From: Candidatus Dormiibacterota bacterium
GTDB lineage: Bacteria > Vulcanimicrobiota > Vulcanimicrobiia > Vulcanimicrobiales > Vulcanimicrobiaceae
Assembly (NCBI GenBank): GCA_035532035.1
Contig: DATKRS010000035.1
Location: 1-64,000 of the forward strand
Direction of reading: 5' to 3'
Length of the DNA: 64,000 bases
Below are positions 8,125-48,662 of this stretch, in pieces. A program made the translations under genes and the position numbers. The notes beneath the pieces are model-generated. The model was not told the origin of the DNA. It made no database searches and saw only the letters and a program-made list of their open reading frames with translations. Position 1 is the first letter of the stretch. Every line of letters starts with the position of its first letter.

Positions 8125-9282
8125 CTAACAGGCAACGATTCGGCCGCGGCAGGCGCCGAAACCCACGCGTAACCCGTCGCGCTCGCACCATCCGCGCAGC
8201 GTGACCTCGTCGCCGTCCTCGAGAAACGCGCGCTGCTCGCCGCTCGGAAGCGAGAGCGGCTTCGTGCCGCGCCACGTGAGCTCGATGAGGCTTCCATAGC
8301 TCGCCGGATCCGATCCCGAGATCGTCCCCGATGCGAAGAGGTCCCCGGGGCGGATGCGCGTTCCGTTGCTGCGCACGTGCGCGAGTTGCTGCGCCATCGT
8401 CCAGTAGAGCTCGCCGGCGTTCGTTCGCGCGATCGTGAGGGGCGCAAGCCCGGCCGTACGCATTGCAGCGCTCTGCAGGTCGGCGGCGAGATCGATGTCG
8501 TACGCGCAGTCGTTTTCGAGGCGCAGATACGGCAGCGGCGCCGGACTCTGCTTCTGTGGCGCGATGCGAAAGGGCGCGAGCGCATCCAGGGTAACGACCC
8601 ACGGCGAGATCGTCGTCGCGAACGATTTGCCGAGAAACGGGCCGAGCGGCTGGTATTCCCAGGCTTGAATGTCGCGCGCGCTCCAATCGTTGACGAGGAC
8701 CAGCCCGAAGATCGACTCGCTGCCCGTCACGAAGCCCACCTCGAGCTCGATGTCGAGCATCGTGCTCGGCCCGAAGACGGGCGCGTCCGCGTCCTGCGGT
8801 TTGCGCTGGCCGTTCGGGCGCCGCACGGGCGTCGCGTCAACGACGATGCTGCCCGCGCGTCCGTGATATCCGACGGGCATCCATTTCCAATTCGGCAGAA
8901 GCGGCTCGGCGTTTGGGCGGAAGATGCGGCCTAGATTCCTCGCGTGCTGCTCCGACGAGTAGAAGTCGACGTAGTCGCCGACTTCAACGGGCAGGCGCAT
9001 CGCAGCCCCTATCCGTTCCACGTATAGCTCTGCGTCGAGATCGTCTTGCAGCAATGCCTGCAACCGTTTTCGCAGCGCGTGCCAGGCGCCCGGTCCTTCG
9101 GCGAGCAGCGGATTGAGAGACGGCGCGCGCAGCACGCCGGGTGCGCAGACCCCGTCGAAGAGTGCAGCCTCCGCCCCGGCATGCAGGTCGAAGATGCGAT
9201 CCCCGATCGCCACGCCGAGATGGACGCTTCCGTCGCGCTCGAACGCGCCGTACGGCAAGTTCTCGATAGGAAACTCGTTCAT
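8125..9282 (-). CDS. fahA: Fumarylacetoacetase
   Basis: This 385-residue enzyme hydrolyses fumarylacetoacetate to fumarate and acetoacetate, the last step of tyrosine breakdown. The N-terminal SH3-like domain (to ~110) is followed by the FAH catalytic fold. Signatures are VDFYSSEQHARNLGRIFRP with the catalytic His and metal-side Asp, then PVGYHGRAGSIV, MLDIELEVGFV (Glu ligands), VLVNDWSARDIQ and WEYQPLGPFLGKSF. It overlaps the upstream 296-residue unknown gene by ATGA and is presumably translated with it. It faces hmgA tail to tail. Confidence 0.96.
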   Translation of the reverse strand: MNEFPIENLPYGAFERDGSVHLGVAIGDRIFDLHAGAEAALFDGVCAPGVLRAPSLNPLLAEGPGAWHALRKRLQALLQDDLDAELYVERIGAAMRLPVEVGDYVDFYSSEQHARNLGRIFRPNAEPLLPNWKWMPVGYHGRAGSIVVDATPVRRPNGQRKPQDADAPVFGPSTMLDIELEVGFVTGSESIFGLVLVNDWSARDIQAWEYQPLGPFLGKSFATTISPWVVTLDALAPFRIAPQKQSPAPLPYLRLENDCAYDIDLAADLQSAAMRTAGLAPLTIARTNAGELYWTMAQQLAHVRSNGTRIRPGDLFASGTISGSDPASYGSLIELTWRGTKPLSLPSGEQRAFLEDGDEVTLRGWCERDGLRVGFGACRGRIVAC

Positions 9283-10169
9283 TGCCGCGGCAGAATGCCG
9301 AGCGCCATGAGATCGTCGACCGGCTCCGCGAAGCTACAGCTTCCGAAGCCGAGAAAGCGCTGTAGGCGATCCGCACGCAACGCCTCGGCATCTGCGAGGA
9401 CCGTGTCGTGCCACAAGAACCCGCGTTCGTCGAACGAAAACGCCGACGCCTCTTCCTCCGCGACGACTTCTCGGACAGTTGCAGTATCGTACCGCGACGC
9501 GACGCACGCGGCGCCGAGCACGTTGAGAAACCCGTGCATGACGAACCCCGCTGTGGCGTTGAAGTGCCGTACTGGATGGTGCAGTCCCGCCGTCGCCTTG
9601 AAGGCGACGCCCGCTCGCGAGGCGGCGACGACGAAGTCTGCAACCTCTTGGACCGGCGGCGTAGCGTCCGGCGTCGCGCCGCCGCACCGAATTTTCGCGC
9701 CAAACCTGCTATCCGAGAGCGCGTCCATCGCCTCGGCGAGCGCCGCGGAGCTCAGCCTGCGCGGAAGCTCCACGGCGATCGGCAACCCCGGCGCGAGCCG
9801 CTCCAGGACTTTGCGCAGCGCGCGAATCGCCGTACGGGTTGCGCCGAGTTCGCGTACCGGAAGCGCCAACGTGATCTCGCAGCTCTCGGGCAACACGTGC
9901 TGCATCGGGCGTATCGCCGCTTCACCGCCTAGCAGCACGGCCATAGGCACCGGCAAGTCCTCCGCGAGCGCCGCGTCCAGCTCGCCGACTCTCTCTGCCG
10001 GGACGACGAACTTGCCGAGCATCCAGGCGTGTGCGTTCTGCCGGCAGCGCTCGTACTCGCGCGCCGCTGCCGGCATCGAAAGCTGTGCCGGCGGGAAGAG
10101 GCCGGCGTAATCGACGATACGCTCGAGAGCGACGCGAGCTGAGGTTGGAACCAGCAGCGACTCAGGCAT
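9279..10169 (-). CDS. Conserved protein of unknown function coupled to fahA
   Basis: This 296-residue soluble protein has no signal peptide or membrane segment. The start ATG 10169 has AGGAG seven bases upstream. I know no characterised family. Its N-terminus YAGLFPPAQLSMPAAAREYE looks distinctive. The second half has a beta/alpha-barrel-like rhythm: PIAVELP, FGAKIRCGG, then FVVAASRAGVAFKATAGLHH. The lysines in AKIR and FKATAG and the paired His could be active-site residues. It overlaps fahA by four bases and diverges from hppD. Since hppD, hmgA and fahA are all present but no GST-type maleylacetoacetate isomerase is seen, a role in that missing step is a testable guess, not a call. Confidence 0.8.
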   Translation of the reverse strand: MPESLLVPTSARVALERIVDYAGLFPPAQLSMPAAAREYERCRQNAHAWMLGKFVVPAERVGELDAALAEDLPVPMAVLLGGEAAIRPMQHVLPESCEITLALPVRELGATRTAIRALRKVLERLAPGLPIAVELPRRLSSAALAEAMDALSDSRFGAKIRCGGATPDATPPVQEVADFVVAASRAGVAFKATAGLHHPVRHFNATAGFVMHGFLNVLGAACVASRYDTATVREVVAEEEASAFSFDERGFLWHDTVLADAEALRADRLQRFLGFGSCSFAEPVDDLMALGILPRQ

Positions 10170-33171: not shown

Positions 33172-34542
33172 CTAGCGCTCGGGAGGTGCTGCCGGGTCGA
33201 TTACGTGCGGGGTGATCAGGAAAACGATCTCGTCTCGCTCGTGCGATGCCTGCCTATTTTCAAAGAGTTTTCCCAAAATCGGAATATCGGAGAGCCACGG
33301 TACCCGCTCGATCGTTTCGTTAGATACGTCGCGAAGCAGCCCGCCGAGAACGATTGTCTGCCCGCTTCGTACCCTCAGCGTGGAATCGATCTTTCGACTT
33401 GCGATAATCGGGTATCCCGACGAAGTAAAACCTTGCAGCTCGCTATATTCTGGGTGAAGTTCCGCGGTAACGCTTCCATCAGGGCCGACGATCGGCGTCA
33501 GGCGAAGTTTTACACCGATATCGACGAATTGAACGTTCGCGCCGCCGAGCACCGAGGTATTGTACACGACCGGGTACGTCTCGCCGATGAGGAGGTCGGC
33601 CTCCTTCCCATTGAGCGTCACCAAGCGCGGCGTGGCCAGTATTTGCGCGTGCCCGCGAGAGAGCAGGGCGTTTAGTCGCACGTTTACCGCAATGCTACCG
33701 CCGGCGAAGGCGTACGTGGAACCGCCGACGATGGGCTGCCCGTGCGCGTCTACTCCGCCAAACTCTAGGCCGATGTTGCTCGAATCGTTCGCCGGCGTGA
33801 CGTCCGCCACGCGCACCTCGAAGAGGACCTCGGGCCCTGCGACGTCCAAAGCCCCGATCGCCTGACGCGCCGCCTGTTGGACGCCGTCGTCGCCCGTCAC
33901 GAGAACCGCGTTTCCTTGGTCGTCGGCAACGAACGCACCATCCGTCAAAGCGGCCTTCAACTCGCGCGCGACGTCCCCGGCACGCGAGTAGCGCAATCGA
34001 TAGGCAACGCTTTGAACGCGGGCCGGCGCCGCAAGCGGGGAGTCGAGAGCGGACACCAGCATACGCGCGCGTTCCAACACCGGAGGATCGCCACTCAAGA
34101 CGAGGGCGTTCGTGCGCGAGTCGGGTACCACGAGCGTTCCCACCGGAAGCGACGCTACGAGCACCTTGCCGACGTCTTGCGCTTGCGCATGCTCGAGCTG
34201 CATGATGATCGTGTGAGGATCGTTCGCGCCCGTATCCTGCCCGTCTCGGTTCAATGCTTCGCGCGCTCCGATGACGAGGACCGTTCCACGCTGCTCGATG
34301 CTAAGCCCGTGTGCCCCGGCCAGAATGTCCAGCGCCGTCATGAAGGGAACGTGCATCAAGCGTAACGTCACCCGCGATGACCCAACCGATTGATCCGCGA
34401 CCAAATTGACGCCGGATTCTTGAGCCAGCAAAGCGATGACGTCGGTCATAGACGCATCGCGAACGTCCAACGATACCGCCGGATTCGGTACGGCGGCGAC
34501 GAACCAGAACGCGAACAGCGCGCCTGCAATATGGCGGCTCAT
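33172..34542 (-). CDS. pilQ: Type IV pilus secretin (PilQ/GspD family)
   Basis: This 456-residue outer-membrane channel protein has a signal peptide (~5-24), then an STN/N0-like domain (SLDVRDASMTDVIALLAQES). One or two N1-type secretin modules follow (~110-220, e.g. DPHTIIMQLEHAQAQDVGKV). The C-terminal secretin domain runs from ~240 to the end, with GGLLRDVSNETIERVPWLSD and LGKLFENRQ as family signatures. It lacks AMIN domains and is short for PilQ. I chose ATG 34542, which overlaps the pilP-like stop by ATGA. It is the last gene of the pilus operon. Confidence 0.94.
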   Translation of the reverse strand: MSRHIAGALFAFWFVAAVPNPAVSLDVRDASMTDVIALLAQESGVNLVADQSVGSSRVTLRLMHVPFMTALDILAGAHGLSIEQRGTVLVIGAREALNRDGQDTGANDPHTIIMQLEHAQAQDVGKVLVASLPVGTLVVPDSRTNALVLSGDPPVLERARMLVSALDSPLAAPARVQSVAYRLRYSRAGDVARELKAALTDGAFVADDQGNAVLVTGDDGVQQAARQAIGALDVAGPEVLFEVRVADVTPANDSSNIGLEFGGVDAHGQPIVGGSTYAFAGGSIAVNVRLNALLSRGHAQILATPRLVTLNGKEADLLIGETYPVVYNTSVLGGANVQFVDIGVKLRLTPIVGPDGSVTAELHPEYSELQGFTSSGYPIIASRKIDSTLRVRSGQTIVLGGLLRDVSNETIERVPWLSDIPILGKLFENRQASHERDEIVFLITPHVIDPAAPPER

Positions 34543-34955
34543 GGTGCAGCTCCTCGCAGCCATAGTCGCGTACCGTCGGCCAGACGGACGCCGCGTGCGT
34601 CTATCGACTGAATGCGAATACCCGCGACGGCATCGCCGACACCGACGATCGCCGTTTGCGCCCCGACGGAAATGAGCGCGTGCGGCGATTCCCCGAGAAG
34701 CACGGCCTCAACGACCGTTCCGGACGGCAGCTCCGCGGCGCGTGGAATAAACGGATCGCGCTTCAGGGCAATCGGGCTCGGAACACCGAGCGGAGCGAGC
34801 CTTCCGATCCGGATACGTGCGCCCGCCACGCCGTTGCGAGGGGTTGCGGAAGATGCTCCGGATAAAGGCGCCAACGCACACGCGGCCGCCGCCAGCAGCA
34901 TTCCCCAACGAAAGATTACGGCTCGCTGGCCGTCATACAAAGCCGGAAGCCTCAT
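34539..34955 (-). CDS. pilP: PilP/GspC-like pilus assembly protein
   Basis: This 138-residue protein, from ATG 34955, has one N-terminal hydrophobic segment (GMLLAAAACALAPLSG). A C-terminal homology-region-like beta fold follows: SPHALISVGAQTAIVGVGD, AGIRIQSIDARGVRLADG, TRLWLRG. In the PilMNOPQ complex PilP links the inner-membrane PilNO proteins to the secretin. There is no lipobox, unlike proteobacterial PilP, so it may be a bitopic, GspC-like version. Position between pilO and pilQ and ATGA overlaps on both sides support the call. Confidence 0.78.
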   Translation of the reverse strand: MRLPALYDGQRAVIFRWGMLLAAAACALAPLSGASSATPRNGVAGARIRIGRLAPLGVPSPIALKRDPFIPRAAELPSGTVVEAVLLGESPHALISVGAQTAIVGVGDAVAGIRIQSIDARGVRLADGTRLWLRGAAP

Positions 34956-35536
34956 CGAAACTCCTGTGACCAATGGGCATCGAGTTCATACGTGCGCGCA
35001 CTCAACGTCGCGTGGAGCGTGGGCGACCCCTTCTGCTCTCCGTCGGCCGTGGTCATTGCGATCGAATCCACTCCGATCAGAGGTGCGCCGGACGTCATCT
35101 CGTGGAGCAATGACAACAGCGATTCAAACGTGCCGTCGACCTCAATCGTGAAGCCGTCAGAGTGAAGAGTCGAGCGCCGTGCTCCGGAACGTTGCGAGAC
35201 GTCGGCCAATGGATTCACGCTGATCACGCGCACGCCCAACTCACCACTTTCCACGTCGAGCTCGCCGAGCAACGCATCTGCCGGCCGCGTCGTATCGTGT
35301 ACCATACGCGCGATATCAGCACGCACGTAGTTGCGCTCCGAGATGAGCGCTGCTTCTTGCGAGATAATGCGCTCGTTTCGGTTTGCCGCATCGTAGACGG
35401 ACCGCTCCGCCGCTCGCACGGCGGCAAGCTGCCGATGCTCGCGCGAGACGATCGCAGCGTACGCGAGAATTATGCAGGTAACGGCGACCGCCCAGGTCCC
35501 TCGCATAGCCCGGCTTTTCACGTAAGCATTTATCAT
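34952..35536 (-). CDS. pilO: PilO-like inner-membrane alignment protein
   Basis: This 194-residue protein has one membrane helix (~14-30, TWAVAVTCIILAYAAIV), a coiled-coil segment (~35-80) and a C-terminal ferredoxin-like alpha/beta region (FTIEVDGTFESLLSLLHEM, a typical PilO pattern). PilO pairs with PilN to form the periplasmic collar of the pilus machine. Sequence similarity in this family is low, so the call rests on topology, this motif and position between pilN and pilP. It overlaps both by four bases. Confidence 0.8.
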   Translation of the reverse strand: MINAYVKSRAMRGTWAVAVTCIILAYAAIVSREHRQLAAVRAAERSVYDAANRNERIISQEAALISERNYVRADIARMVHDTTRPADALLGELDVESGELGVRVISVNPLADVSQRSGARRSTLHSDGFTIEVDGTFESLLSLLHEMTSGAPLIGVDSIAMTTADGEQKGSPTLHATLSARTYELDAHWSQEFR

Positions 35537-36072
35537 TCCGAGACGTGCGCCTCAAAGTCGACGACGCGCGCCGAGTTCGAGCCGGAGCTTCGTACGGAGG
35601 TCAAGCGTATCGCGCGGTAAGCGTGCAAGGCGCGCTCCACTCCGCGGAGGCCTACAGCCCTGCCCGTCACGGAATATCCCGCCAAATCATAGCGGATACT
35701 GGTGAGCCATGCATCCAAAGGAAGCGTATTAGCCGCGGAGGTGATGTTCCGTGCCGTCGCGGATCCGGATGTCCTGATCGCGCGTATACGCCGATCGAGC
35801 GAAAGCCACGATCGAACGCGACGTGCGCGAGCGAGAACCTTGTTCGCTTCGAACGTGCTGCGTTCGAGATAGGCTCTGGCCTGCGCCAGGGTCGAACGCT
35901 CTTTCCGAACGTGGAACTCACCGATCGCCCAGGCACTCAAAAGCACGATTGCCGCAATCACGACGACGCTCGCCAGAGCCTTCGCTTCCGGATGAAGCCC
36001 AAGGGCGAGAACGCGTTCGACCGCTTCCGGTGCCTCATCTCGCAGGTAGTCGAAAGTCACGCTGCACGCCAC
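35533..36072 (-). CDS. pilN: PilN-like pilus assembly protein
   Basis: This 179-residue bitopic protein has a short cytoplasmic start, one membrane helix (ALASVVVIAAIVLLSAWAIG, ~32-51), a coiled coil, and a PilN-type periplasmic region (NTLPLDAWLTSIRYDLAGYSV). PilN's cytoplasmic tail normally binds PilM. The usual INLLP tail motif is not obvious. It overlaps pilM by 16 bases and pilO by four. Confidence 0.82.
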   Translation of the reverse strand: MACSVTFDYLRDEAPEAVERVLALGLHPEAKALASVVVIAAIVLLSAWAIGEFHVRKERSTLAQARAYLERSTFEANKVLARARRVRSWLSLDRRIRAIRTSGSATARNITSAANTLPLDAWLTSIRYDLAGYSVTGRAVGLRGVERALHAYRAIRLTSVRSSGSNSARVVDFEAHVSE

Positions 36073-37016
36073 GTAGTCAAGGCTGCGGCGAGCGTCCAGT
36101 CAGGCGAGCCACATTCCACCGCTTCGTCCGACAGTCTTGCCGTTCTCATGAGAAGCGAAACCGGCGTCCTGACGCGGACATCGGTCCGTTCAGCCACCGA
36201 TTCCACCACGCCAGGGAGACGGGCGCCATTACCGATAAATCCAATCTCACTAACGCGTACTCCGCCAGCTCGCGCCTCTTCGATCAGTGCGCAAATCGCC
36301 TCCACGCAGGACTCTCGGGCACTCTCGCCGGCGCCGGCAACGCCCAGTATACGTTTGCGCCGCTCCGCACTTGCCGTGTCGATAAGAAGGTCGCTCGCGA
36401 TGCATCGCGTTACGTCCACCCCTCCCACGCCCGCCGTCCACGACAGCGGCGCTCCTTCCAAGAACACGTGAAGTCGCAGCGTCTCATAGCCGATATCAAC
36501 CACGGCATCGACGTCGCCCAGTACGCGCTGCAACGCGCAGGCATCGTGATCTACGCCTGCTACGCGTAGGCGTGCTCTGCGCAGGATATCGACATGATGC
36601 CGCAACAGCATCTCGTCTACCATTCCGACGGCAAACACGCCCGACGTTCGATCGATCGAGTGCAAACGCACCCGTATCGGCTTTCGCGACGTCCCACCGT
36701 ACTCTCCCAGAGCCTCGAAGCGCGCAGCGTTCCTCCGCTCCAGCCAACTCATCTTAGGAAATCGCACGTTACGAAGCGTCGCTTGAGGCGATCCTAGCGC
36801 TGACACGCACTCCCTCTGTCGCCGCAGCCCGAGCTCGCGGCTGAGATCTTCGAGAACGGCGACCGCCGCGGCATCGCGTTCGGCTTCGTTACAGTCTGCG
36901 CGCTCGCGCGACGCGATCCCAAGAATCCGTATCGTTCCGTCCCTACGCCGTTCCGCAACGGCAACGCGGATTCGTGTCGCCCCGATATCAATTCCGAGCG
37001 GAAGGACGTGTATCAT
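36057..37016 (-). CDS. pilM: PilM-like actin-fold ATPase of the type IV pilus
   Basis: This 319-residue cytoplasmic protein has the FtsA/actin-fold layout. Phosphate-1 loop LGIDIGATRIRVAVAE lies at the start, phosphate-2 loop VDIGYETLRLHVF near 175, and the adenosine-side motif IGFIGNGARLPGV near 275. PilM binds the PilN tail and connects the membrane collar to the cytoplasmic motors. It is in the expected order pilM-N-O-P-Q. It overlaps the prepilin peptidase gene downstream by four bases. Confidence 0.92.
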   Translation of the reverse strand: MIHVLPLGIDIGATRIRVAVAERRRDGTIRILGIASRERADCNEAERDAAAVAVLEDLSRELGLRRQRECVSALGSPQATLRNVRFPKMSWLERRNAARFEALGEYGGTSRKPIRVRLHSIDRTSGVFAVGMVDEMLLRHHVDILRRARLRVAGVDHDACALQRVLGDVDAVVDIGYETLRLHVFLEGAPLSWTAGVGGVDVTRCIASDLLIDTASAERRKRILGVAGAGESARESCVEAICALIEEARAGGVRVSEIGFIGNGARLPGVVESVAERTDVRVRTPVSLLMRTARLSDEAVECGSPDWTLAAALTTWRAA

Positions 37017-37612
37017 CGTCCCACCACGAGCGCGCCAAACCAGGCACCGATCGAGAGAAATGGAGCAAATGGAAGCACGTCCGAGAATCGCTTTCGGCGC
37101 GCAAGCACGAGGGCGGCCGCGACGATCCCACCCATAATAAACGCAACTGCGACCATGGACAACGCCCCGCTCACGCTTTCAGACATTCCGAGCAGTGCAG
37201 CGAGCTTTACGTCACCCAGCGCGAGCCCGCGTCCTCGACTGCCAACGCTGAGTAATGCCGGGAGAGTCGCTCCTGAGAGAACCCCCAGCGCAGCATTCAG
37301 GGCGTTTCCTTCCACGAGGCAACATGCCATCGTCAGCGCACATCCGAATGCAACGACATAATCGAAGATGTAGCCACATTCCAAATCCGTCACGGCGCAA
37401 ATTCCCGCCACCGAAAGCGCAGCAACCTCACCTGCTGTCACGCGTGATAAGCTAGACCCCACGACATCGATTGCCACGACCGATCCCATCAGAATGTGCG
37501 AGCGGAACCGTGGTTCGGCGCGGCATCCATAACGCTCGGCCGCGCAGCGAGAAATCACGACGCACGTACCGCCAATGACCGCGCTGGCGATCCCTGCATG
37601 CGCGCCGTTCAT
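37013..37612 (-). CDS. pilD: Prepilin peptidase, short form without methylase domain
   Basis: This ~199-residue membrane protease of the A24 family has about six hydrophobic segments. The two catalytic aspartates are in VTDLECGYIFD (usually DLxxxxIPD; here Phe replaces Pro) and GLALGDVKLAALLG (GxGDxKL). It removes the leader of the pilin encoded in the same operon. The N-terminal cytoplasmic methyltransferase domain with its four cysteines is missing, so N-methylation may not occur or may need another enzyme. I chose ATG 37612, which shares one base with the preceding stop; the frame is open upstream but overlaps the TPR gene. Confidence 0.87.
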   Translation of the reverse strand: MNGAHAGIASAVIGGTCVVISRCAAERYGCRAEPRFRSHILMGSVVAIDVVGSSLSRVTAGEVAALSVAGICAVTDLECGYIFDYVVAFGCALTMACCLVEGNALNAALGVLSGATLPALLSVGSRGRGLALGDVKLAALLGMSESVSGALSMVAVAFIMGGIVAAALVLARRKRFSDVLPFAPFLSIGAWFGALVVGR

Positions 37613-38175
37613 CACCGGGCCAACGCTCGCAGCGCCGGCACGTACCGGCGCCGAGCCTCCAATGCCAGGTGCCACCAGAGCCGCGCCCGTTCTCGCGATC
37701 CGAGGCGCAACGCTGCGTAGCCGGCAAAGACGAGCGCGCGCGCATCTCGCCCGAGCATTCCGGCTGTAACGAAGTCTTGCTCCGCTGCAGCGTACTGCCC
37801 GAGGGCGCGCTCGCAAAGCGCCCTGTCTAGGAGCAATGTTTCGCTCATCCGAGGTCCTCGCAAGAACGCGGTCAGCTTGCGAACCGCGAGCCGCAGGAGC
37901 GACCTTCTGTGCATCATTAGAGCTACAAATGCATATCGGTCCATCGCTGTCGCACTGCCTGGATCGAGGAACAATGCACGTGCGTAAAACTTCATTGCCG
38001 CTTCGACCTTCGATTGATACAGCATATCGTCGCCTCGGGTGACCATTGCTGAAGCGAGCTGCGCGTGCAGCAACACGGTCGTCATAGCGATTGCGGTGAG
38101 GCTCGCCAGCGCATTGCGTGCGGGCTCCGCTCGCCCATGGGCACCGTCACGCGAGCAGAGCATAGTATCCCGCAA
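37612..38175 (-). CDS. TPR-like protein in the pilus operon
   Basis: This 187-residue protein has an N-terminal hydrophobic segment (ALASLTAIAMTTVLLHAQLA, ~22-42). About three helix-turn-helix units follow with the TPR-type pattern (KVEAAMKFYARALFLDPGS, GQYAAAEQDFVTAGML, GSRERARLWWHLALEAR). TPR proteins commonly act as pilotins or assembly scaffolds for pilus secretins (PilF/Tgl type). An equivalent role fits the context but is not proven. The start (38175, or ATG 38163) overlaps the CcdA-like gene by up to 29 bases. Confidence 0.78.
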   Translation of the reverse strand: MRDTMLCSRDGAHGRAEPARNALASLTAIAMTTVLLHAQLASAMVTRGDDMLYQSKVEAAMKFYARALFLDPGSATAMDRYAFVALMMHRRSLLRLAVRKLTAFLRGPRMSETLLLDRALCERALGQYAAAEQDFVTAGMLGRDARALVFAGYAALRLGSRERARLWWHLALEARRRYVPALRALAR

Positions 38176-38812
38176 GCGCGACCATCACGCCCCCTCCGAC
38201 GACCGATGCTGCCCGTCGCCACTGCTCACCATGCAGCAGTCCACAAATGCGCGAGTCTCTGCACGTCAACAGGGTGAGGGGCATCCCATGACCGATTGCA
38301 AATGCGGCGGCAACTGCCGCGGCGAAGAAAGGACTCGATGCTTTCGCAGCAACACCCGCGATGGCCACGAGAACAGGCGTGCAGCACGGTGACGCCACGA
38401 AAGCGAAGGAAGCTCCACTCAAGAACGCGCACCCGATCGAACGTACCGCCGGTGCAGACATTGTGGCACCGCAGCACTCGTGCGTATTCGATCGCGCAAG
38501 CCCGCGCGCTCCGTAGATCAGCAGGCCGAATGCGAGCGCGCCATATATCCAAGACGATTGCATCGCAATTCGAAACCACAGCGTTGCAGAGGACGCGATC
38601 AGCACGTACGACGCTACGATACCAACGACGAACGTCGCCACGAGCACCAACCGCCGAACGCCGCGCGCTCCGCTGGTGAGACCGGTAAGCGATGCGGCGC
38701 GAGCTGCAAAGCAGGGCCCCACCGAGCCCGCGACCCCGGCCGCGAACGCCAAGGCCGGCGTCGCCCCGGCCTGCCGCGAAAGCGACGCAAGGAACGCGCC
38801 GACGATATCCAC
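38147..38812 (-). CDS. CcdA/DsbD-like membrane thiol transporter
   Basis: This 221-residue protein has six or more membrane segments. The two halves carry the CcdA-type cysteine sites GVAGSVGPCFAARAAS and FVASPCCTPVLVAIAG. Extra cysteines lie in HECCGA and LTCRDSRICG. CcdA/DsbD proteins pass electrons from cytoplasmic thioredoxin across the membrane to periplasmic thiol proteins, mostly in cytochrome c maturation. None of the usual partners is nearby. Instead it sits between pilin and TPR genes, three bases after the pilin stop. The pilin has two cysteines, so a role in pilin disulfide handling is an attractive inference. Confidence 0.82.
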   Translation of the reverse strand: MDIVGAFLASLSRQAGATPALAFAAGVAGSVGPCFAARAASLTGLTSGARGVRRLVLVATFVVGIVASYVLIASSATLWFRIAMQSSWIYGALAFGLLIYGARGLARSNTHECCGATMSAPAVRSIGCAFLSGASFAFVASPCCTPVLVAIAGVAAKASSPFFAAAVAAAFAIGHGMPLTLLTCRDSRICGLLHGEQWRRAASVVGGGVMVALAGYYALLA

Positions 38813-38815
38813 GGC

Positions 38816-39271
38816 TTATTGACTGCTCACGGCGGAAAACCCAGTCTGCGAACCGTACTGGATGTGAGTCGCAGTCGTGTTGCCTTGATTGAAGCCCTGA
38901 AGAGTCCCGGGATCGTGAATTCCCGGACATGTAATCGTATACGAAGGCTGTCCGTTACCATCCGTACTTACCGTAAACGTATACGGCTTACCCGGGCCTG
39001 CTGCCGGATCCACCGGGACCTGCTGCACGTACGGCTGAAGATCACTGTTGCTTGCGTCCACATTGCCGCTCTGGGGATAGGCATCATGATCTGTTTCGTA
39101 GAGCTCTAATGCCGTTGCAATTTCTTTGAGGTTCGCCTCGCAGGCGGCCGTCTGCGCCTGCGCCCTCGCTCGCATCAGATTCGGTACGAGTATCGTCACT
39201 AAGATCGCGATGATGGCCACGACGATCATCATCTCAATCAGCGTGAAACCACGCTCGCTGTCATTCGTCAC
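38816..39271 (-). CDS. Type IV major pilin precursor
   Basis: This 151-residue prepilin has a short leader (MTNDSERG) cleaved before Phe in G-FTLIEMMIVVAIIAI. Glu5 is present, as needed for assembly, and a long hydrophobic N-terminal helix follows. The globular part is small, with NLKEIATALELYETDHDAYP typical of GspG/pseudopilin-like type IV pilins. It has exactly two cysteines (44 and 115 of the precursor), which could form one disulfide. The start is a GTG overlapping the sigma-factor stop by GTGA. It is the only pilin in the operon; minor pilins must be elsewhere or absent. Confidence 0.95.
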   Translation of the reverse strand: MTNDSERGFTLIEMMIVVAIIAILVTILVPNLMRARAQAQTAACEANLKEIATALELYETDHDAYPQSGNVDASNSDLQPYVQQVPVDPAAGPGKPYTFTVSTDGNGQPSYTITCPGIHDPGTLQGFNQGNTTATHIQYGSQTGFSAVSSQ

Positions 39272-39978
39272 GACGACATCACCTTGTTATCGTAATGCCC
39301 CGTGCACGAGACCGCGGGACGCATTAATCCCGCTAGCTTTCGAAGGGTTCGACGATGCAATCTCGCCACATGACGCCGGGAATATCCGAGCTTTGCCGCG
39401 AGTGCGGTCATCGGAGTATCGCACTCATAAATTTCTCGCAGAATAGTACGCTCGAGAGGTGAAAAGCGACTGACAACGCTCTCCAGTCCGATCCGGTCCA
39501 GCTCCGCGTCGATCGTATATGCCAGCGACTGCTGCTCGGGAGGCTTCAGCGCATCGAACGGAACGACGTGGCTCGCAGCGCGATACTGCCTGAGCTCGCG
39601 GCACTCCGAAGCGGAGGCGCCGAGTGCCTCGACGATCTCGGCTTGCGTCGATTCTCGGCCCTGCTGCATCCAGACGTCGTGTTCCGCCTGAAGCCAGCGA
39701 CGATCGAGATCTCTGAGTCGTCGCGGCGCGCGGACGAGCCGCTCGCTGTCCCGCACGTAGTGCATCAGCTCTCCGATCATCAGAAGCCACGCATAGGCCT
39801 CGAACGGCGTGCGCGACGCGGGGTCGAACCGATCCGCGGCCTTGATGAGACCGATCGCGGCTACTTGTTCGAGATCGGCTCTGTCGAGACCGGGTCGAGC
39901 GAAACGTCGAGCGGCGCGAACGTATAGGTACCGATAGCGCGCGACTACATCGTCGCGCGAAAGACACAAGGCTATCAC
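39268..39978 (-). CDS. Sigma-70 family factor (group 3, SigB/SigF/FliA-like) inside the pilus operon
   Basis: The 236-residue protein starts at GTG 39978, overlapping the pilC stop by GTGA with AGGGA eight bases upstream. Region 2 is clear: RRFARPGLDRADLEQVAAIG, IKAADRFDPASRTPFEAYA and IGELMHYVRDSERLVRAP (-10 recognition). A region 3-like part (STQAEIVEALGAS) and region 4 (FSPLERTILREIYECDTPM, then the helix-turn-helix KLGYSRRHVARLHRRTLRKL) follow. The GEL-HYVRD pattern places it with SigB/SigF/SigG/FliA-type factors, not ECF. No anti-sigma gene is visible nearby. The natural guess is that it directs transcription of pilus or other envelope genes. Confidence 0.92.
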   Translation of the reverse strand: MIALCLSRDDVVARYRYLYVRAARRFARPGLDRADLEQVAAIGLIKAADRFDPASRTPFEAYAWLLMIGELMHYVRDSERLVRAPRRLRDLDRRWLQAEHDVWMQQGRESTQAEIVEALGASASECRELRQYRAASHVVPFDALKPPEQQSLAYTIDAELDRIGLESVVSRFSPLERTILREIYECDTPMTALAAKLGYSRRHVARLHRRTLRKLAGLMRPAVSCTGHYDNKVMSS

Positions 39979-41195
39979 CGAATGTTCCCTATTGCAGCGT
40001 ATAGCGGGATGATGATCGAGGCGACGATCGTGCCCACCGCAATTCCAAGAACCGCAATCATTATGGGCTCGATGATCGATGTGATCGTCGCGAGTGTCGC
40101 GGAAACGTCGGCTTCGTAATGCTCGGCGGCGCGCAGCAACATGCCGTCGAGGGAGCCCGATTCCTCTCCTATAGCAGCCAGCCCGACGCAGAGTGCTTCG
40201 AAGGTTCCTACGGTTCGCAGCGCGAGGGCAAAGCCGGTTCCTTCGGCAAGCAGCCGCTCTACTCGCAGTATCGCTTGCCGGTACGCCCCATTCCCCACCA
40301 CGCCGGCCGCCGTGCCAACGGACTCCGCGATGGCGACGCCGCACTGCAGCAGCGTTCCAACGGTCAGCGCAAACGTCGCCGTCGCTGCGCTGCTTCGGAT
40401 CCTTCCGATGACCGGCAGCTTGAGCATCCTCTCGTCCAGCCAAAGACTGCGCGCTCCTCCTTGCTGAAATGCCACCGTACCACCGATGATGCACGCGCAA
40501 ATAGCAGCACCCGCGAACGGTGCCACCGGCGTGCGCAAGCTCTCACTCACAGCGATCATCAGTCGCGTTGATAACGGCAAGGAGGCATGCAGTTCCGTAA
40601 AGATAGAGCTCAGGCTGGGCACGGTCGTAAGGAGCAAGAAGCCGACCAGGCCGCCAGCCGCAGCCATGACGAGCCCCGGATACGTCAGCGCCGCCGCCAC
40701 GCGGCGACGTAGTTCGCCTTCGCGCTCGAGCATGATCGCGCAACGATCGAGAACCTCTTCGAGCACCCCGCCAACCTCCCCAGCACGAACCATTGCTACG
40801 ATCGTCGTAGAGAACTCGGCCGGTCGCCGCGACATCGCATCTGAAAGCGCAGTCCCCTCGTCGACATCTGCGGCTGCAGCGCGCAAAGCTTCCGCGAATC
40901 GCGAATCGCCGCATTGATCGATTGAAACAGCGAGGGCGCGCCGCAACGTCGCACCTGCGCCAACAAGAACGGCGAGTGAGCGAAAGAATGCCGCTCGCGT
41001 ACGCCGCCGCGGTGCTGCGAGCGTCAAAAGCGCCTTGACCTTGCCCCGTACGTCCGCCTCATCGTCCAAGGATGTCACGAAGAGTCGCCGCCCCCGCAGC
41101 TGCAAAACGGCATCGTACCGCGAGGGCGCCCGCATCGTTCCCGTGACGATGCTACCCTCATCTGAGCGCGCCGTGTAATGATACACAGCGTCCAA
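39975..41195 (-). CDS. pilC: Pilus inner-membrane platform protein (PilC/GspF)
   Basis: This 406-residue protein has two repeated GspF domains, each with a conserved entry. The first runs AAFFRSLAVLVGAGATLRRAL to GGVLEEVLDRCA, followed by a membrane hairpin near 175-240. The second runs TATFALTVGTLLQCGVAIAE to SGSLDGMLLRAAEHYE, with a final membrane helix. PilC is the platform turned by the PilB/PilT motors. The apparent start is TTG 41195, directly after the pilT stop; the next GTG is four codons in. It overlaps the sigma gene by GTGA. Confidence 0.94.
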   Translation of the reverse strand: MDAVYHYTARSDEGSIVTGTMRAPSRYDAVLQLRGRRLFVTSLDDEADVRGKVKALLTLAAPRRRTRAAFFRSLAVLVGAGATLRRALAVSIDQCGDSRFAEALRAAAADVDEGTALSDAMSRRPAEFSTTIVAMVRAGEVGGVLEEVLDRCAIMLEREGELRRRVAAALTYPGLVMAAAGGLVGFLLLTTVPSLSSIFTELHASLPLSTRLMIAVSESLRTPVAPFAGAAICACIIGGTVAFQQGGARSLWLDERMLKLPVIGRIRSSAATATFALTVGTLLQCGVAIAESVGTAAGVVGNGAYRQAILRVERLLAEGTGFALALRTVGTFEALCVGLAAIGEESGSLDGMLLRAAEHYEADVSATLATITSIIEPIMIAVLGIAVGTIVASIIIPLYAAIGNIR

Positions 41196-42233
41196 TTAGC
41201 GCGCGGCCTCCGCACAAGCGGGGGTTATCGCGCCCCTTGCCACCAACGAGGAGAGATGCGCTTCCAGCGTTTGCATCCCAAAGCGCCTGCTCGTCGCCAT
41301 GACGCTTGGCAGCTGGTGATGCTTGCCGTCGCGAATCATATGCCGCACGGCATCCGTTGCGACGAGCACTTCTGCCGCCAAGTGCCGGCCGCTTCCCGTG
41401 GCTCGGGGGACGAGCCGCTGACAGATCACGGCTAGCAAGACGTTCGCTATTCGACCGCGCGCATGCTCTGCGCGATCGGATGGAAACGCATCGATGAGGC
41501 GGTCAACGCTCTGGGGGACGTCGCCCGTATGAACGGTTGCCAGCACGAGATGTCCCGTCTCGGCGGCGGCTATCGCAGCGGAAATGGTATCGGCGTCCCG
41601 CATCTCGCCAATCACGATTACGTCCGGATCGCTACGCAGTGCTCCACGTATTGCCTCCGCGAACGTACGCACGTCACGCCCGATCTGGCGCTGCACGATC
41701 AGCGAGCGCTTCGGTGGAATGCGGTACTCCACAGGATCCTCAAGCGTGATAATTTTGCGAGCGCTCGTATCGTTGAGCATCGCAATGAGGCTCGCAAGCG
41801 TCGTAGACTTGCCGCTCCCCGTAGGCCCCCCGAGCATCAAAAGTCCACGTGGCGCACGCGCGAGGTCGCTCAGGACCTCCGGGAGCTCCAGAGAACGCGG
41901 CGATGGGACCTCTCGCGCGAGAAAGCGCAGCGTCAGTGAGAGGCCGTCCATCGTACGAGCCGCGTGCGCGCGAATCGTCGTCCCCTCTTCCGCGATCGTG
42001 GTAGTGGCGTCGCCGACTTCAGCCAAACGCTCCCGTTCGGCGTCGCCGAACAACGAGGCAGCAACGCGTTCGACGTCCTCCGGCGAAACGCCGGAGGCAC
42101 CGCACGCTTCGAGCCGACCGTCGATGCGTAGAACCGGCGGAAGACCCGGGGCAAAGTGTACGTCGGAGGCTCCGCGCATCTGCGCTGCATGTAGCGTGTC
42201 CGAGAGCAATATCGTTGCTAGCGCGCTCGTCAC
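41196..42233 (-). CDS. pilT: Pilus retraction ATPase (PilT)
   Basis: The 345-residue protein starts at GTG 42233, overlapping the pilB stop (GTGA). The N-terminal PAS-like domain begins LSDTLHAAQMRGASDVHFAP. The ATPase core shows Walker A GGPTGSGKSTTLAS, the Asp-box region TLEDPVEYR, Walker B DPDVIVIGEMRD and His box GHLVLATVHTGD. A C-terminal AIRNLIRE-like motif appears as VRHMIRDGKHHQLPSVM, which marks PilT rather than PilB. It powers pilus disassembly, so the pili are probably retractile and usable for twitching or DNA uptake. Confidence 0.94.
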   Translation of the reverse strand: MTSALATILLSDTLHAAQMRGASDVHFAPGLPPVLRIDGRLEACGASGVSPEDVERVAASLFGDAERERLAEVGDATTTIAEEGTTIRAHAARTMDGLSLTLRFLAREVPSPRSLELPEVLSDLARAPRGLLMLGGPTGSGKSTTLASLIAMLNDTSARKIITLEDPVEYRIPPKRSLIVQRQIGRDVRTFAEAIRGALRSDPDVIVIGEMRDADTISAAIAAAETGHLVLATVHTGDVPQSVDRLIDAFPSDRAEHARGRIANVLLAVICQRLVPRATGSGRHLAAEVLVATDAVRHMIRDGKHHQLPSVMATSRRFGMQTLEAHLSSLVARGAITPACAEAAR

Positions 42234-43627
42234 GTGGGAATGCGCTCGCCAAGAACGCGCTCTACCTCGGCAGCGGTCGTCCGGCCTGCCATGACGTGAC
42301 GCAGGCCGTCTCGCGCAAGGCTGCCGCACGCGTCGCGCTCGATGAGATGTCGGAGCTGCTGTGCCGGCGAGCCGCTCGAGATCGCGCTACGCAACTCCTC
42401 GCTAATAGCGACGCACTCGAACATCCCCGTACGCCCAGAGAAGCCCATGCCGAAGCAGTCCTGACAGCCGGCTCCGTCGACGCAGCTGGAGCATTTTGTC
42501 CTCACGAGTCGCTGCGCAATGATGCCGGTCAAAGCTGCACCAAGCGTGTGACGCGCTACGCCCAAGTCCATCAGCTTTTCGATCGCACGCGCCGCATCCC
42601 GACTGTGAAGCGTCGTGAGAACGAGCTGGCCGGCGAGAGCGGCGGAGCTGGCAATCCCTGCGGTCTCTGCGTCGCGCATCTCACCTACCATGACGACGTC
42701 GGGATCCTGCCTCAGTATCGAGCGGAGTGCGCGCGCAAAGGTCAAGCCCGCTCGGACGTTCACCTGCATTTGCGCAATGCCGGGAAGGTGCATTTCGATC
42801 GGATCTTCTATGGTGCACACGTGCTCGGCGTCGCACGTCCGCTCGGACAGTGCTGCGTACAACGTCGTCGATTTTCCGCTTCCGGTCGGACCGCATACCA
42901 CGACAAAGCCATGCGGAGCCCCCATAAGAGAGCGGCAGCGCTCTAGCGTCCCTATGTCCATGCCGAGGAGATCGAGACGTGGACGCTCAGCATGCCAGTC
43001 GAAGAGGCGAATCACGACGCGTTCTCCATCGATCGTCGAGATCGCCGAAACGCGTGCGTCGATGGTTCGGCTGTCGACGTTCAGCGAGTATCGCCCATCC
43101 TGCGGCTGCCTCCGCTCCGCTACGTCGATCTCCGCGAGCACCTTCACGCGCGAGACTATTTGCGCGTGAAGCCGCTCCTCGAGCACGCGTACTTCCTGAA
43201 GGCGCCCGTCGATGCGTTGGCGCACGCGTCCTCCGCGAGCGTACGGCTCGATGTGAACGTCCGAAGCGCGCGACCGGATTGCGCCCTCGTGTATCTCGTC
43301 GAGAACCCGAACGGCTGACGACGACGTGTCACCTTCGAACCGGCGATTTCTGGCGCCGCCGTACGCAACAGCGAGCTGCTTACGAATGAGCTCGCGCGCA
43401 ACTGGCATGGCCCGGACACGCATCCCGGTAAGCAAGCGAATCCGATCCACGGTCGACGGCTCGCCGTCCGGCACCGCAACCAACAACTCAGTGCCGTCGA
43501 CACCGTACGGCAGCACATCGTGCCGGAACGCAAAGCCTGCGGGAATATAGCGGAGCGCCTCCGGATCGGGATGGAAAGGCGCACTTTGCGTGCCCAAGCC
43601 AAATCGAAACTCATGAGAAAGAGTCAC
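42230..43627 (-). CDS. pilB: Pilus extension ATPase (PilB/GspE)
   Basis: This ~465-residue motor ATPase has an MshEN-like N-terminal part shorter than in PilB of Proteobacteria. The core follows with ASDVHIEPY, Walker A CGPTGSGKSTTLYAAL, Walker B DPDVVMVGEMRDAET and His box GQLVLTTLHSRDA. A zinc-binding tetracysteine is present (CSSCVDGAGCQDC). It extends pili by rotating PilC. I chose GTG 43627 with AGGAGAGG about eight bases upstream; another GTG at 43648 is in frame. It is the first gene of the 13-gene pilus operon. Confidence 0.94.
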   Translation of the reverse strand: MTLSHEFRFGLGTQSAPFHPDPEALRYIPAGFAFRHDVLPYGVDGTELLVAVPDGEPSTVDRIRLLTGMRVRAMPVARELIRKQLAVAYGGARNRRFEGDTSSSAVRVLDEIHEGAIRSRASDVHIEPYARGGRVRQRIDGRLQEVRVLEERLHAQIVSRVKVLAEIDVAERRQPQDGRYSLNVDSRTIDARVSAISTIDGERVVIRLFDWHAERPRLDLLGMDIGTLERCRSLMGAPHGFVVVCGPTGSGKSTTLYAALSERTCDAEHVCTIEDPIEMHLPGIAQMQVNVRAGLTFARALRSILRQDPDVVMVGEMRDAETAGIASSAALAGQLVLTTLHSRDAARAIEKLMDLGVARHTLGAALTGIIAQRLVRTKCSSCVDGAGCQDCFGMGFSGRTGMFECVAISEELRSAISSGSPAQQLRHLIERDACGSLARDGLRHVMAGRTTAAEVERVLGERIPT

Positions 43628-43697
43628 ACCTCGACCTCTCCTCTTCACGGATCACTACGTCGCGGGCATCCACCCTCTGCCCAGCTGCTATGGAATC

Positions 43698-43726
43698 TCT
43701 TATGCCATAAATTGGTCAGTCGCGCA
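43698..43726 (-). promoter_or_regulatory. Possible promoter of the pilus operon
   Basis: On the minus strand TTGCGC (43726-43721) and CATAAG (43703-43698) are separated by 17 bases. They resemble a sigma-70-type -35/-10 pair with four of six matches each, about 70 bases before pilB. The match is modest. If the sigma factor encoded in the operon has its own consensus, this site could equally belong to it. Confidence 0.3.
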
Positions 43727-43729
43727 AGA

Positions 43730-47078: not shown

Positions 47079-48662
47079 GTGGAGAAACTGAACAAATCCG
47101 TGCATAGCCGCGTAGAGCACGGCCTCGCGATGGCCTTCGGCATCGTCGCCGTCGCGGTGCTCGTAGACATTCTCATCGGCTTGTGGGCGTACGAAAACGG
47201 CTCCGCCTTCGCCGGCGTGATGCTCGTCGCGGCACCGCTGCTGCTCCTTGCAACCGTCGCGTTTACGCTCGCGTGGCTGCGTGCGTCGATACTGCGTACG
47301 ATCGGGCGTTGCACCGAGATCTTCGCAGCGATGGGACGCGGCGACCTTGCGGCGCGAACGGGCTGGGCCGGGAGCGATCTCCTCGGCCGGCTCGGCAGCT
47401 CGATCGACGCACTCGCCGATCGTCTGAGCCGTACGATCGGGGCGATTCAGCGCGCTGCGACGATGCTGCAAGAAGCCGGCGAGCGCAGCAGCCGCCTCGC
47501 GGCCGACGTGGCGCAGCGTGCGGGTGAGGAGCACACGGTGCTCGGCGAAGCGTTCGCCTACTCAACCGAACTCGCGACCGCCGCAGGCAGCGTTGCGGAG
47601 AACTCTGAGGGCGTCGCGCGCCTCGTCACCGACATCTCAAGCTCCGTCGCACAGATGACCGCGTCCATCTCCGAGATGGATCGCAATCTCCTCAGCCTCT
47701 CGACCGTCGTCGAGCAAGCCGTTGCGAACGCGCAAGAGATGTCGGCTTCGATTGCGCACGTCGCCGCCAACACCGACAGCGTTCGCGCGGAGGCCGGCGC
47801 TACCGACGAGCGCGTACGCGGCGGGCGCAACGACGTGCTCGCGCTCACGCAGGGCATTGCGAGCATCGGCGAAACCGTCTCCGCTGTCGTCGCCGAGATG
47901 CAGAACCTCGATCGCGCTGCGCATCAGATCGGTGACATCCTCAGCATCATCGAGAACATCGCCGACCAAACGAATCTTCTCGCGCTCAACGCCGCGATCG
48001 AAGCGGCTCGCGCCGGCGAGCACGGACGCGGTTTCGCCGTCGTCGCCGACGAAGTACGCAAGCTAGCGGAAACGTCCGCCGGCTCGACGCAGCAAATCGC
48101 GTCGCTCGTCGTCGACATTCAGCGCCGGACCAAAGCCGTGCTCGATCGCGCCGGCCGCGCGGACGAGCTCGTGCAGCACAACGTCCGATCGGCCGGCAAC
48201 GTCACCGCGACGATCGAGCAGATCAGCGAGCGCGTCGCGCACGTTGCGGACCTCATCTCGGAGATCAGCATCGCAACGACGCAGCAGGCGCGCGGCTCCG
48301 AAGAGCTGGCCAAGGCGAGCGAACAGATGGGCGCGATGACGCACGAGGCCGCAGCAACGATGCGCGAGCAGTCGATCACATCGAGTCAAATCCTCTCGTC
48401 GGTCTCGGAGATCGAGCGGCGTACGGGCGACGTGGCGCACGCCGCGGCCGCGCAGCAGGCAGCGATCGACCGACTCCGGACGCGCGTTCGTCGCGCTGAG
48501 GACCTCGGCGAGCAGAACGCCCAGGCAGTCGCTGCGATGGCCTCCGGCGCTCGCGAGGTGCACGCCGGGACGGGGGAGATCAAGCGGCTCGCCGGTCAGT
48601 TCGAGACGACAAAGGCCGACGGGCCCCTAGAAGAGCAGGGGCCCTTTGCGCTATCATCTTGA
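47079..48662 (+). CDS. Methyl-accepting chemotaxis protein without a ligand-binding domain
   Basis: The 527-residue protein starts at GTG 47079. Two membrane helices (~17-37 and ~44-67) are joined by only about five outside residues (ENGSA), so there is no periplasmic sensor. A HAMP-like segment (~68-120) leads to a long signalling coiled coil. The kinase-contact hairpin tip is intact ([20 protein letters not shown], then [16 protein letters not shown]). It probably reports internal or membrane-energy states. No che genes are nearby. The last ~15 codons run through a terminator-like hairpin. Confidence 0.94.
48621..48644 (+). terminator. Terminator-like hairpin inside the chemoreceptor 3' end
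   Basis: GGGCCCCT pairs perfectly with AGGGGCCC across an eight-base loop and is followed by TTT. The chemoreceptor reading frame continues through it for six more codons before TGA at 48660. The short T-run makes termination likely only in part. Confidence 0.5.

Follow-up and report, generated by a model that had tools for sequence, protein, structure and literature searches.

The window, that is, the whole stretch of 64,000 nucleotides analysed here, lies on contig C35 of an Eremiobacterota metagenome-assembled genome (G000; 2.25 Mb, 96% complete). Its minus strand carries a pilus operon in the order pilB, pilT, pilC, a sigma factor gene, the pilin gene, genes for a CcdA/DsbD-like protein, a TPR protein and a PilD-like protein, pilM, candidates for pilN, pilO and pilP, and pilQ (Table 1). 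Family matches are clear for PilB, PilT, PilC, the pilin with its prepilin motif, PilM and the PilQ secretin, whose joint occurrence identifies a type IVa pilus operon. The true start of pilT is probably located downstream of that of the maximal open reading frame given in the table. As stated in the original prediction, which had been made on this DNA from its letters alone, the sigma factor gene is complete and embedded between pilC and the pilin gene. It extends from a GTG start at 39978 to a TGA at 39268 and codes for 236 residues with Pfam matches to regions 2 and 4. The pilC stop and the sigma start share one GTGA, and the sigma stop shares another with the pilin GTG (39271), each being an overlap of 4 nt. 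In line with the prediction, neither an anti-sigma domain (including the RsbW/SpoIIAB type) nor a FlgM-like gene was seen among the window proteins scanned. Elsewhere in the window, a methyl-accepting chemotaxis protein gene adjoins ftsA (47079-48662, plus strand).

Table 1. Pilus operon of the window and its candidate promoters (window positions).
Feature	Position	Strand	Evidence
Conserved promoter-like motif upstream of pilB, TTGCGC-N14-TGGCATAA or equally TTGCGC-N17-CATAAG	43700-43727	-	
pilB, extension ATPase, at the head of the operon	42230-43648	-	Family matches
pilT, retraction ATPase	41196-42329	-	pilT_fam above cut-off
pilC, inner-membrane platform	39975-41195	-	Family matches
Sigma factor gene, SigB/SigF/SigG type, group 3	39268-39978	-	GTGA overlaps at both ends; phylum-wide orthologues
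Predicted pilin promoter, GTCCCG (39320-39315)-N14-GGGCAT (39300-39295)	39295-39320	-	Leave-one-genus-out p=0.0025
Major pilin gene (151 aa) with prepilin motif RGFTLIEMMIVVAIIAIL; probable main target	38816-39271	-	Family matches
CcdA/DsbD-like membrane protein, in operon	38147-38812	-	DsbD_TM 6.9e-7
TPR protein, in operon	37612-38175	-	Pfam
Probable prepilin peptidase (PilD-like), true start uncertain	37013-37816	-	Peptidase_A24 1.2e-5, just below curated cut-off
pilM	36057-37016	-	FtsA-fold 4.5e-10
pilN candidate	35533-36072	-	Position; no Pfam match; tblastn-conserved
pilO candidate	34952-35536	-	Weak T2SSM_b match, 4.5e-6; position
pilP candidate	34539-34973	-	Position; no Pfam match; tblastn-conserved
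pilQ secretin, closing the pil cluster	33172-34563	-	Family matches

The sigma factor matches Sigma70_r2 (6.5e-11, residues 12-80) and Sigma70_r4 (4.9e-8, residues 173-215). Its top NCBIfam model is SigBFG (1.2e-33); FliA_WhiG scores 3e-18. SigBFG is the highest-scoring model for every pil-linked sigma factor shown, followed by the SigF model NF005644, a likeness drawn from model scores; NF005644 is presumably the cyanobacterial SigF model. All the same, the curated SigBFG cut-off (TIGR02980, 234 bits) is missed by the window protein (116.7 bits) and by its counterpart in G057 (203 bits), which makes of them divergent SigB/F/G relatives rather than members by that model. According to the models, the window sigma factor is thus neither of the FliA/WhiG nor of the ECF type. 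The closest PDB match is the SigF structure 1l0o_C (3.4e-18 over residues 7-214). An AlphaFold model (mean pLDDT 78.5, pTM 0.40) places helices where sigma2, sigma3 and sigma4 belong and a disordered tail past residue 221; the helices at the sigma3 position indicate that region 3 is present too, as is expected of a group 3 sigma factor and unlike group 4/ECF proteins. Foldseek retrieved SigB- and FliA-containing structures with this model (E about 1e-9 to 1e-7); as the domains have no fixed arrangement, TM-scores over the whole chain are low. Residues invariant among the pil-linked proteins fit region 2 (DL.QV..IGL.KA and GE..H..RD) and region 4.2.

The association of the sigma gene with the pilus operon was followed in 60 relatives, in which the best sigma match was traced by its place and its surroundings compared, yielding a first set of 48 loci including the window. 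The synteny proposed as a check of the original prediction was recovered: the sigma gene directly follows pilC at 41 loci and directly precedes pilB at five, hence adjoins one or the other in 46 of the 48, across families f1-f8. This runs counter to the refuting case named in the prediction, a sigma gene located outside the pilus operon in most relatives. One of the two remaining loci is cut by a contig end and the other, in G027, has no pil genes around it. The 41 pilC-sigma loci include five deep families represented by one genome each (G055-G059), and the order pilB-pilT-pilC-sigma is also seen in G015. The 4-nt overlap of pilC and the sigma gene is shared by almost every genome of f1 and f2; the two genes are separated by a few nucleotides in f3 and by more in f4-f8. 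In a maximum-likelihood tree that also contained 21 other Eremiobacterota sigma factors and six sequences from Actinomycetota or Bacillota, all 48 pil-linked sigma factors form a single clade (support 90/95), within which f4-f8, f3 and f1/f2 branch in this order. Phylum-wide linkage together with a single clade supports an association that goes back to the ancestor of the phylum as sampled and has been passed on mostly by vertical descent. A second SigB/F-type gene of the window genome (G000:C29) lies beside an alaS-like coding sequence, outside the pil operon. Paralogues of this C29 type fall outside the pil-sigma clade and were found in most Eremiobacterota searched.

Several loci show additional elements. 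In operons that begin with the sigma gene (L117, L120 and L123 of G024, G021 and G022, respectively), the inverted repeat AACATTAAGAAGATTTAATGTT or a relative of it, as well as ACATTTG-N5-SATAATCG, is found upstream of the sigma gene, and together they probably constitute an operator; some of these loci have a divergent response-regulator-like gene near the repeat. Genes for GT39-like membrane glycosyltransferases, recognized by eye, are located between the sigma gene and the pilins at L066 and L073 (f3) and at L114 (f4). A MazE/MazF-like toxin-antitoxin pair, also recognized by eye, is apparently inserted between sigma and pilin genes at L130 of G025 (about 9268-9977).

A candidate promoter, GTCNNN-N14-GGGCAY, was found before pilin genes. 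It takes the form GTCCNN-N14-GGGCAY in f1 and GTCTAA-N14-GGGTAT in the AT-rich families, where it comes near the textbook sigma-B consensus. Among the AT-rich deep families, the spacers before pilins contain GTCTAA-N14-GGGTAT in G057, and GTCTAA-N14-TGGTAT and GTCAGA-N14-GGGTAG in G055; sites resembling GTCTAA-N14-GGGTAT precede pilins in f4, f6 and f8. The window site is embedded in the 3'-terminal part of the sigma gene, some 24 nt ahead of the GTG that starts the pilin. In the window genus (g1), the sigma reading frame continues through the promoter (window 39268-39330, minus strand) into a tail (...GHYDN..) that is disordered in the model, whereas the sigma stop precedes the motif in other genera. 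A FliA-type promoter was considered for these sites and rejected, as the -10 element misfits GCCGATAA and GTC-N17-GGGCAY differs from TAAA-N15-GCCGATAA.

In g1 the motif coincides with conserved codons near the end of the sigma gene (R-P, G-H, in the C-terminus of the protein), and constraint on the protein could therefore maintain it there. This is what speaks for regarding the motif as a product of chance or codon constraint, with a sigma factor that is co-transcribed with the operon without acting on it. The motif forms tried by eye before one was fixed were TTGC...CATAA, GTCTAA...GGTA, CTAA...GGGCATTG and GTCC...GGGCAC, a freedom of choice against which only the held-out and leave-one-genus-out tests guard. 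The pattern GTC[ACT]NN-N13..14-[GT]GG[CT]A[CTG] was present in 15 of 49 pilin upstream regions for 0.26 expected from shuffles, a result that is partly circular, the pattern being derived in part from the same sequences. Once fixed, it matched 10 of 17 sigma-adjoining pilins in previously unseen genomes, spread over eight genera; among the remaining 150-nt windows from these loci, 15 of 4317 matched (0.35%). Four held-out genera have a member in the first set (g1, g7, g19 and g24); for the genera absent from it, five of nine loci matched (g52, g48 twice, g50 and g20) and the fixed pattern was unmatched in g25 (three times) and g9. Most held-out matches stand after the sigma stop codon.

The leave-one-genus-out search, seeded with the sigma-B consensus of the literature, covered 66 pilin upstream regions from 36 genera. 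It retrieved 20 regions, belonging to 13 genera, at p<=0.01 and 32 regions, belonging to 20 genera, at p<=0.05, exceeding the 0-2 obtained at p<=0.01 when the same procedure was applied to random operon windows, and its matrix converged on GTC-N17-GGGCAYT. The other 34 of the 66 regions lack a clear site at p<=0.05 in this search, and no pilin site was seen in the clade whose sigma gene precedes pilB. The held-out test largely contradicts an origin of the motif by chance or codon constraint, against which the leave-one-genus-out result and the sigma-B-like form in AT-rich families also argue, and such an origin is very improbable.

Sites of the same kind occur away from the operon. A scan of the whole genomes G055-G059 with GTCTAA-N13..15-GGTA, which asked nothing about gene function, reached prepilin genes in G055 (L185), G057 (L195, L203) and G059 (L179, L194, L196), as well as a secreted protein gene at L192; further matches, most notably in G057, stand elsewhere than at prepilin genes. 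The reversed control pattern outnumbered the motif overall, so that raw match counts prove nothing and the weight rests on the prepilin genes found behind many of the matches. With CTAA-N13..15-GGGCATTG, a scan of ten f3 genomes equally blind to gene function gave seven matches (control 1), four of them just before pilins. In G000, GTCC-N16-GGGCAC occurs four times and one occurrence (C4:260490-260465, minus strand) directly precedes a second gene, unlinked to the operon, whose prepilin signal (C4:260445-260377) accounts for one of the three N-methylation matches in this genome. The gene (L310; C4:258397-260481, minus strand) contains an open reading frame of 694 residues with the signal at its N-terminus, and its upstream site, GTCCCG-N14-GGGCAC, lies about 11 nt before the likely ATG, which would leave a very short leader.

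The sigma factor reading these sites could in principle be the second one of the SigB/F type. It belongs to the same SigB/F/G family as the pil-linked protein, could share a GTTT/GGGTAT-type specificity with it and is present in most of the Eremiobacterota searched, in which case the pil-linked sigma factor would have another job. Two observations point instead to the pil-linked protein, neither of them being proof. First, a SigBFG search of G057 and G059, which have the motif at their pilins, returned the pil-linked gene as the strongest match; the weaker sigma matches were interpreted as RpoD and as a FliA-like type. A C29-type paralogue was not seen in either genome (90% and 75% complete, respectively), an absence that could be an assembly gap at this completeness. 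Second, the change of the pilin -35 element from GTCTAA (f3-f8) to GTCC (f1) is accompanied by one in helix 4.2 of the pil sigma, which reads SQKHISR in f3-f8 and YSRRHVAR in the window genus and its kin, while the paralogue keeps SQMHVSR. As the linkage of the sigma gene to pil genes and the pilin motif are moreover both conserved, recognition by the C29-type sigma factor is improbable.

The preferred reading builds on the sigma gene with its two overlaps, its linkage to pil genes across the phylum, the clade that unites the pil-linked sigma factors and the enriched motif. The window sigma factor would be dedicated to the pilin, be produced together with the assembly proteins and initiate at pilin promoters, and on these sequence grounds this reading is probably correct. 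It is an inference that the motif is recognized by the pil sigma and not by a different factor, and likewise that the pil sigma is active, that pilin production requires it and how it is kept in check. Co-transcribed and translationally coupled behind pilC, the sigma factor would be made alongside the motor and platform proteins. Core RNA polymerase carrying it would initiate at GTCNNN-N14-GGGCAY (ancestrally GTCTAA-N14-GGGYAT), where such promoters immediately precede the pilin gene and certain prepilin genes not linked to the operon. The pilin being the subunit presumably needed in the greatest amount, its strong expression would have to await that of the machinery genes, in a feed-forward manner similar to that of FliA and flagellin. 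In its simplest form, the cascade would have RpoD or another input driving the machinery and the sigma gene, and the sigma factor driving the pilin.

The original prediction went further in suggesting self-amplifying pilus expression, and a promoter motif common to pilB and other targets was to be looked for. The window motif upstream of pilB is the sole G000 match to TTGCR-N15..17-GKCATAA. The related TTGCR-N14-TGKCATAA is conserved before pilB in g1, in G036 and probably in g7, and stands before the orphan sigma gene of G027; moreover, the pilB -10 element resembles KGGYAT and the g1 sites are without the usual final T of TATAAT. The pil sigma might accordingly drive pilB, and hence itself, from TTGC-N14-TGGCATAA, which would be compatible with its role at the pilin and merely add to it. 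The window motif can be read as a weak version of the sigma factor's own promoter or as an RpoD extended -10 promoter, for the same bases spell TTGCNN-N17-CATAAR with an extended TG. Furthermore, the -35 element at pilB is unlike that of the pilin promoter, and the deep families display a plain RpoD-type TTGC-N17-TATAAT before pilB as opposed to GTCTAA-N14-GGGTAT before pilins. Autoregulation through pilB was rejected as the main model on account of the RpoD-like reading and of the clear TATAAT of the deep families; as an addition, it is rather doubtful. Support is accordingly best for the pilin gene as target rather than for self-amplification through pilB, GTC/GGGYAY-type sites being shared by pilins and some unlinked prepilin genes.

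The sigma gene also outlives the pilus. Members of genus g51 as well as G073 have retained it in an ftsZ-thyX-[pil]-aroC neighborhood devoid of pil genes (loci L009-L012, L014, L015, L018, L242-L246, L248-L253 and L257). A search for T2SSE ATPases in ten genomes with such an orphan sigma gene (nine of g51 and G073) found no PilB or PilT type, only more distant members. Persistence without a pilus implies that the sigma factor can be useful without one and that the pilin is not its sole use everywhere. A motif resembling TTGCGC...TGGTATATAAC precedes the sigma gene in most of the g51 loci displayed. At three g51 loci, GTCCTA-N14-GGGCAC faces a divergent gene for a GT87-like membrane protein. 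Genome-wide matches to GTCC-N16-GGGCAC in g51 were also considered and set aside: they were mostly unshared and chance-like, and only the divergent GT87-like gene recurred.

These three loci, the retention of the sigma gene after pil gene loss in g51 and G027, and the GT39-like genes between sigma and pilin genes in f3 and f4 could together mean that the sigma factor mainly governs genes unrelated to the pilus, for surface glycans or something else, and that its position among the pil genes only couples this regulon to pilus expression. Against this, the GTCCTA-N14-GGGCAC site is missing from most g51 loci checked and genome-wide motif matches in pilus-bearing genomes favor prepilin genes, which makes a mainly non-pilus role unlikely. 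The switch toward another regulon that had been envisaged for the operon is accordingly upheld only in part, by the unlinked prepilin gene with its site in G000 and by the g51 orphans, which must act elsewhere.

Group 3 sigma factors controlling type IV pili are known. In Synechocystis PCC 6803, SigF alone transcribes pilA1 in vitro (PMC2758279) and in Nostoc punctiforme, pilA alone among the characterized hormogonium genes depends stringently on sigF (PMC6495340). As far as the accessible portions of these papers go, cyanobacterial SigF likewise is a group 3 sigma factor with a very small regulon and the major pilin gene as key target; unlike the pil sigma, it is not described there as encoded in a pil operon, and that of Nostoc acts in a SigJ cascade. 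In Rubrobacter, the type 3 sigma factor WhiG controls type IV pilus genes from promoters within the pilus cluster (PMC8325347). According to the accessible text of that report, WhiG differs by its FliA/WhiG promoter type (TAAA-GCCGATAA), its c-di-GMP-dependent anti-sigma RsiG and its targets, which include whole pil units and DGC/PDE genes; a location of whiG within the pil operon is not stated in that text. SigB of Bacillus and Staphylococcus and the sporulation factors SigF and SigG are of the same SigBFG family and provide the best solved relatives (1l0o_C, 8x6g_H), but they serve general stress or sporulation whereas the regulon predicted for the pil sigma consists of prepilins. FliA (sigma-28) resembles the role proposed for the pil sigma in being a late sigma factor, made with the machinery, that switches on the filament subunit, and differs from the pil sigma in sigma subfamily, promoter and organelle. 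The PilS-PilR genes lie between pilC and pilA in Myxococcus. Regulators of pilus expression encoded inside a type IVa pilus cluster are established (PilS-PilR; PMC6060248), although control of pilA in Myxococcus and Pseudomonas involves a two-component system and sigma-54 (RpoN) instead of a sigma-70-family factor. The earlier statement that a pilus operon carrying its own sigma gene was without precedent consequently holds for the location, for which no description was found in the literature searched (most subscription papers being outside reach), and not for pilus control by such factors. Nor was a description found there of a promoter read by a sigma factor and situated in the end of that factor's own gene.

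The analysis adds the candidate cognate promoter; in the literature searched, the location of the sigma gene inside the operon is likewise without a described precedent. Tentatively, a pilin-specific group 3 sigma factor might be an ancient module common to Eremiobacterota and Cyanobacteria (SigF). In Eremiobacterota it would have been fixed in the pilus operon from the origin of the phylum onward, its target promoter adjoining its own gene or lying within it, and in some lineages it would have survived the pilus and been recruited to new targets. For a mostly uncultured phylum, the analysis provides a concrete, testable rule of pilus control and a promoter motif for genome annotation. Vulcanimicrobium alpinus, a cultured species with type IV pilus phototaxis whose description covers pili and phototaxis and mentions no sigma factor in its main text (PMC9758169), makes this rule amenable to experiment. 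The g51 orphans offer a natural experiment on the fate of a dedicated sigma factor after the loss of its organelle. Overall, the pil sigma would add a case in which a sigma factor encoded in the operon couples the expression of a filament subunit to its machinery, in parallel with FliA and flagellin and with SigF and pilA.
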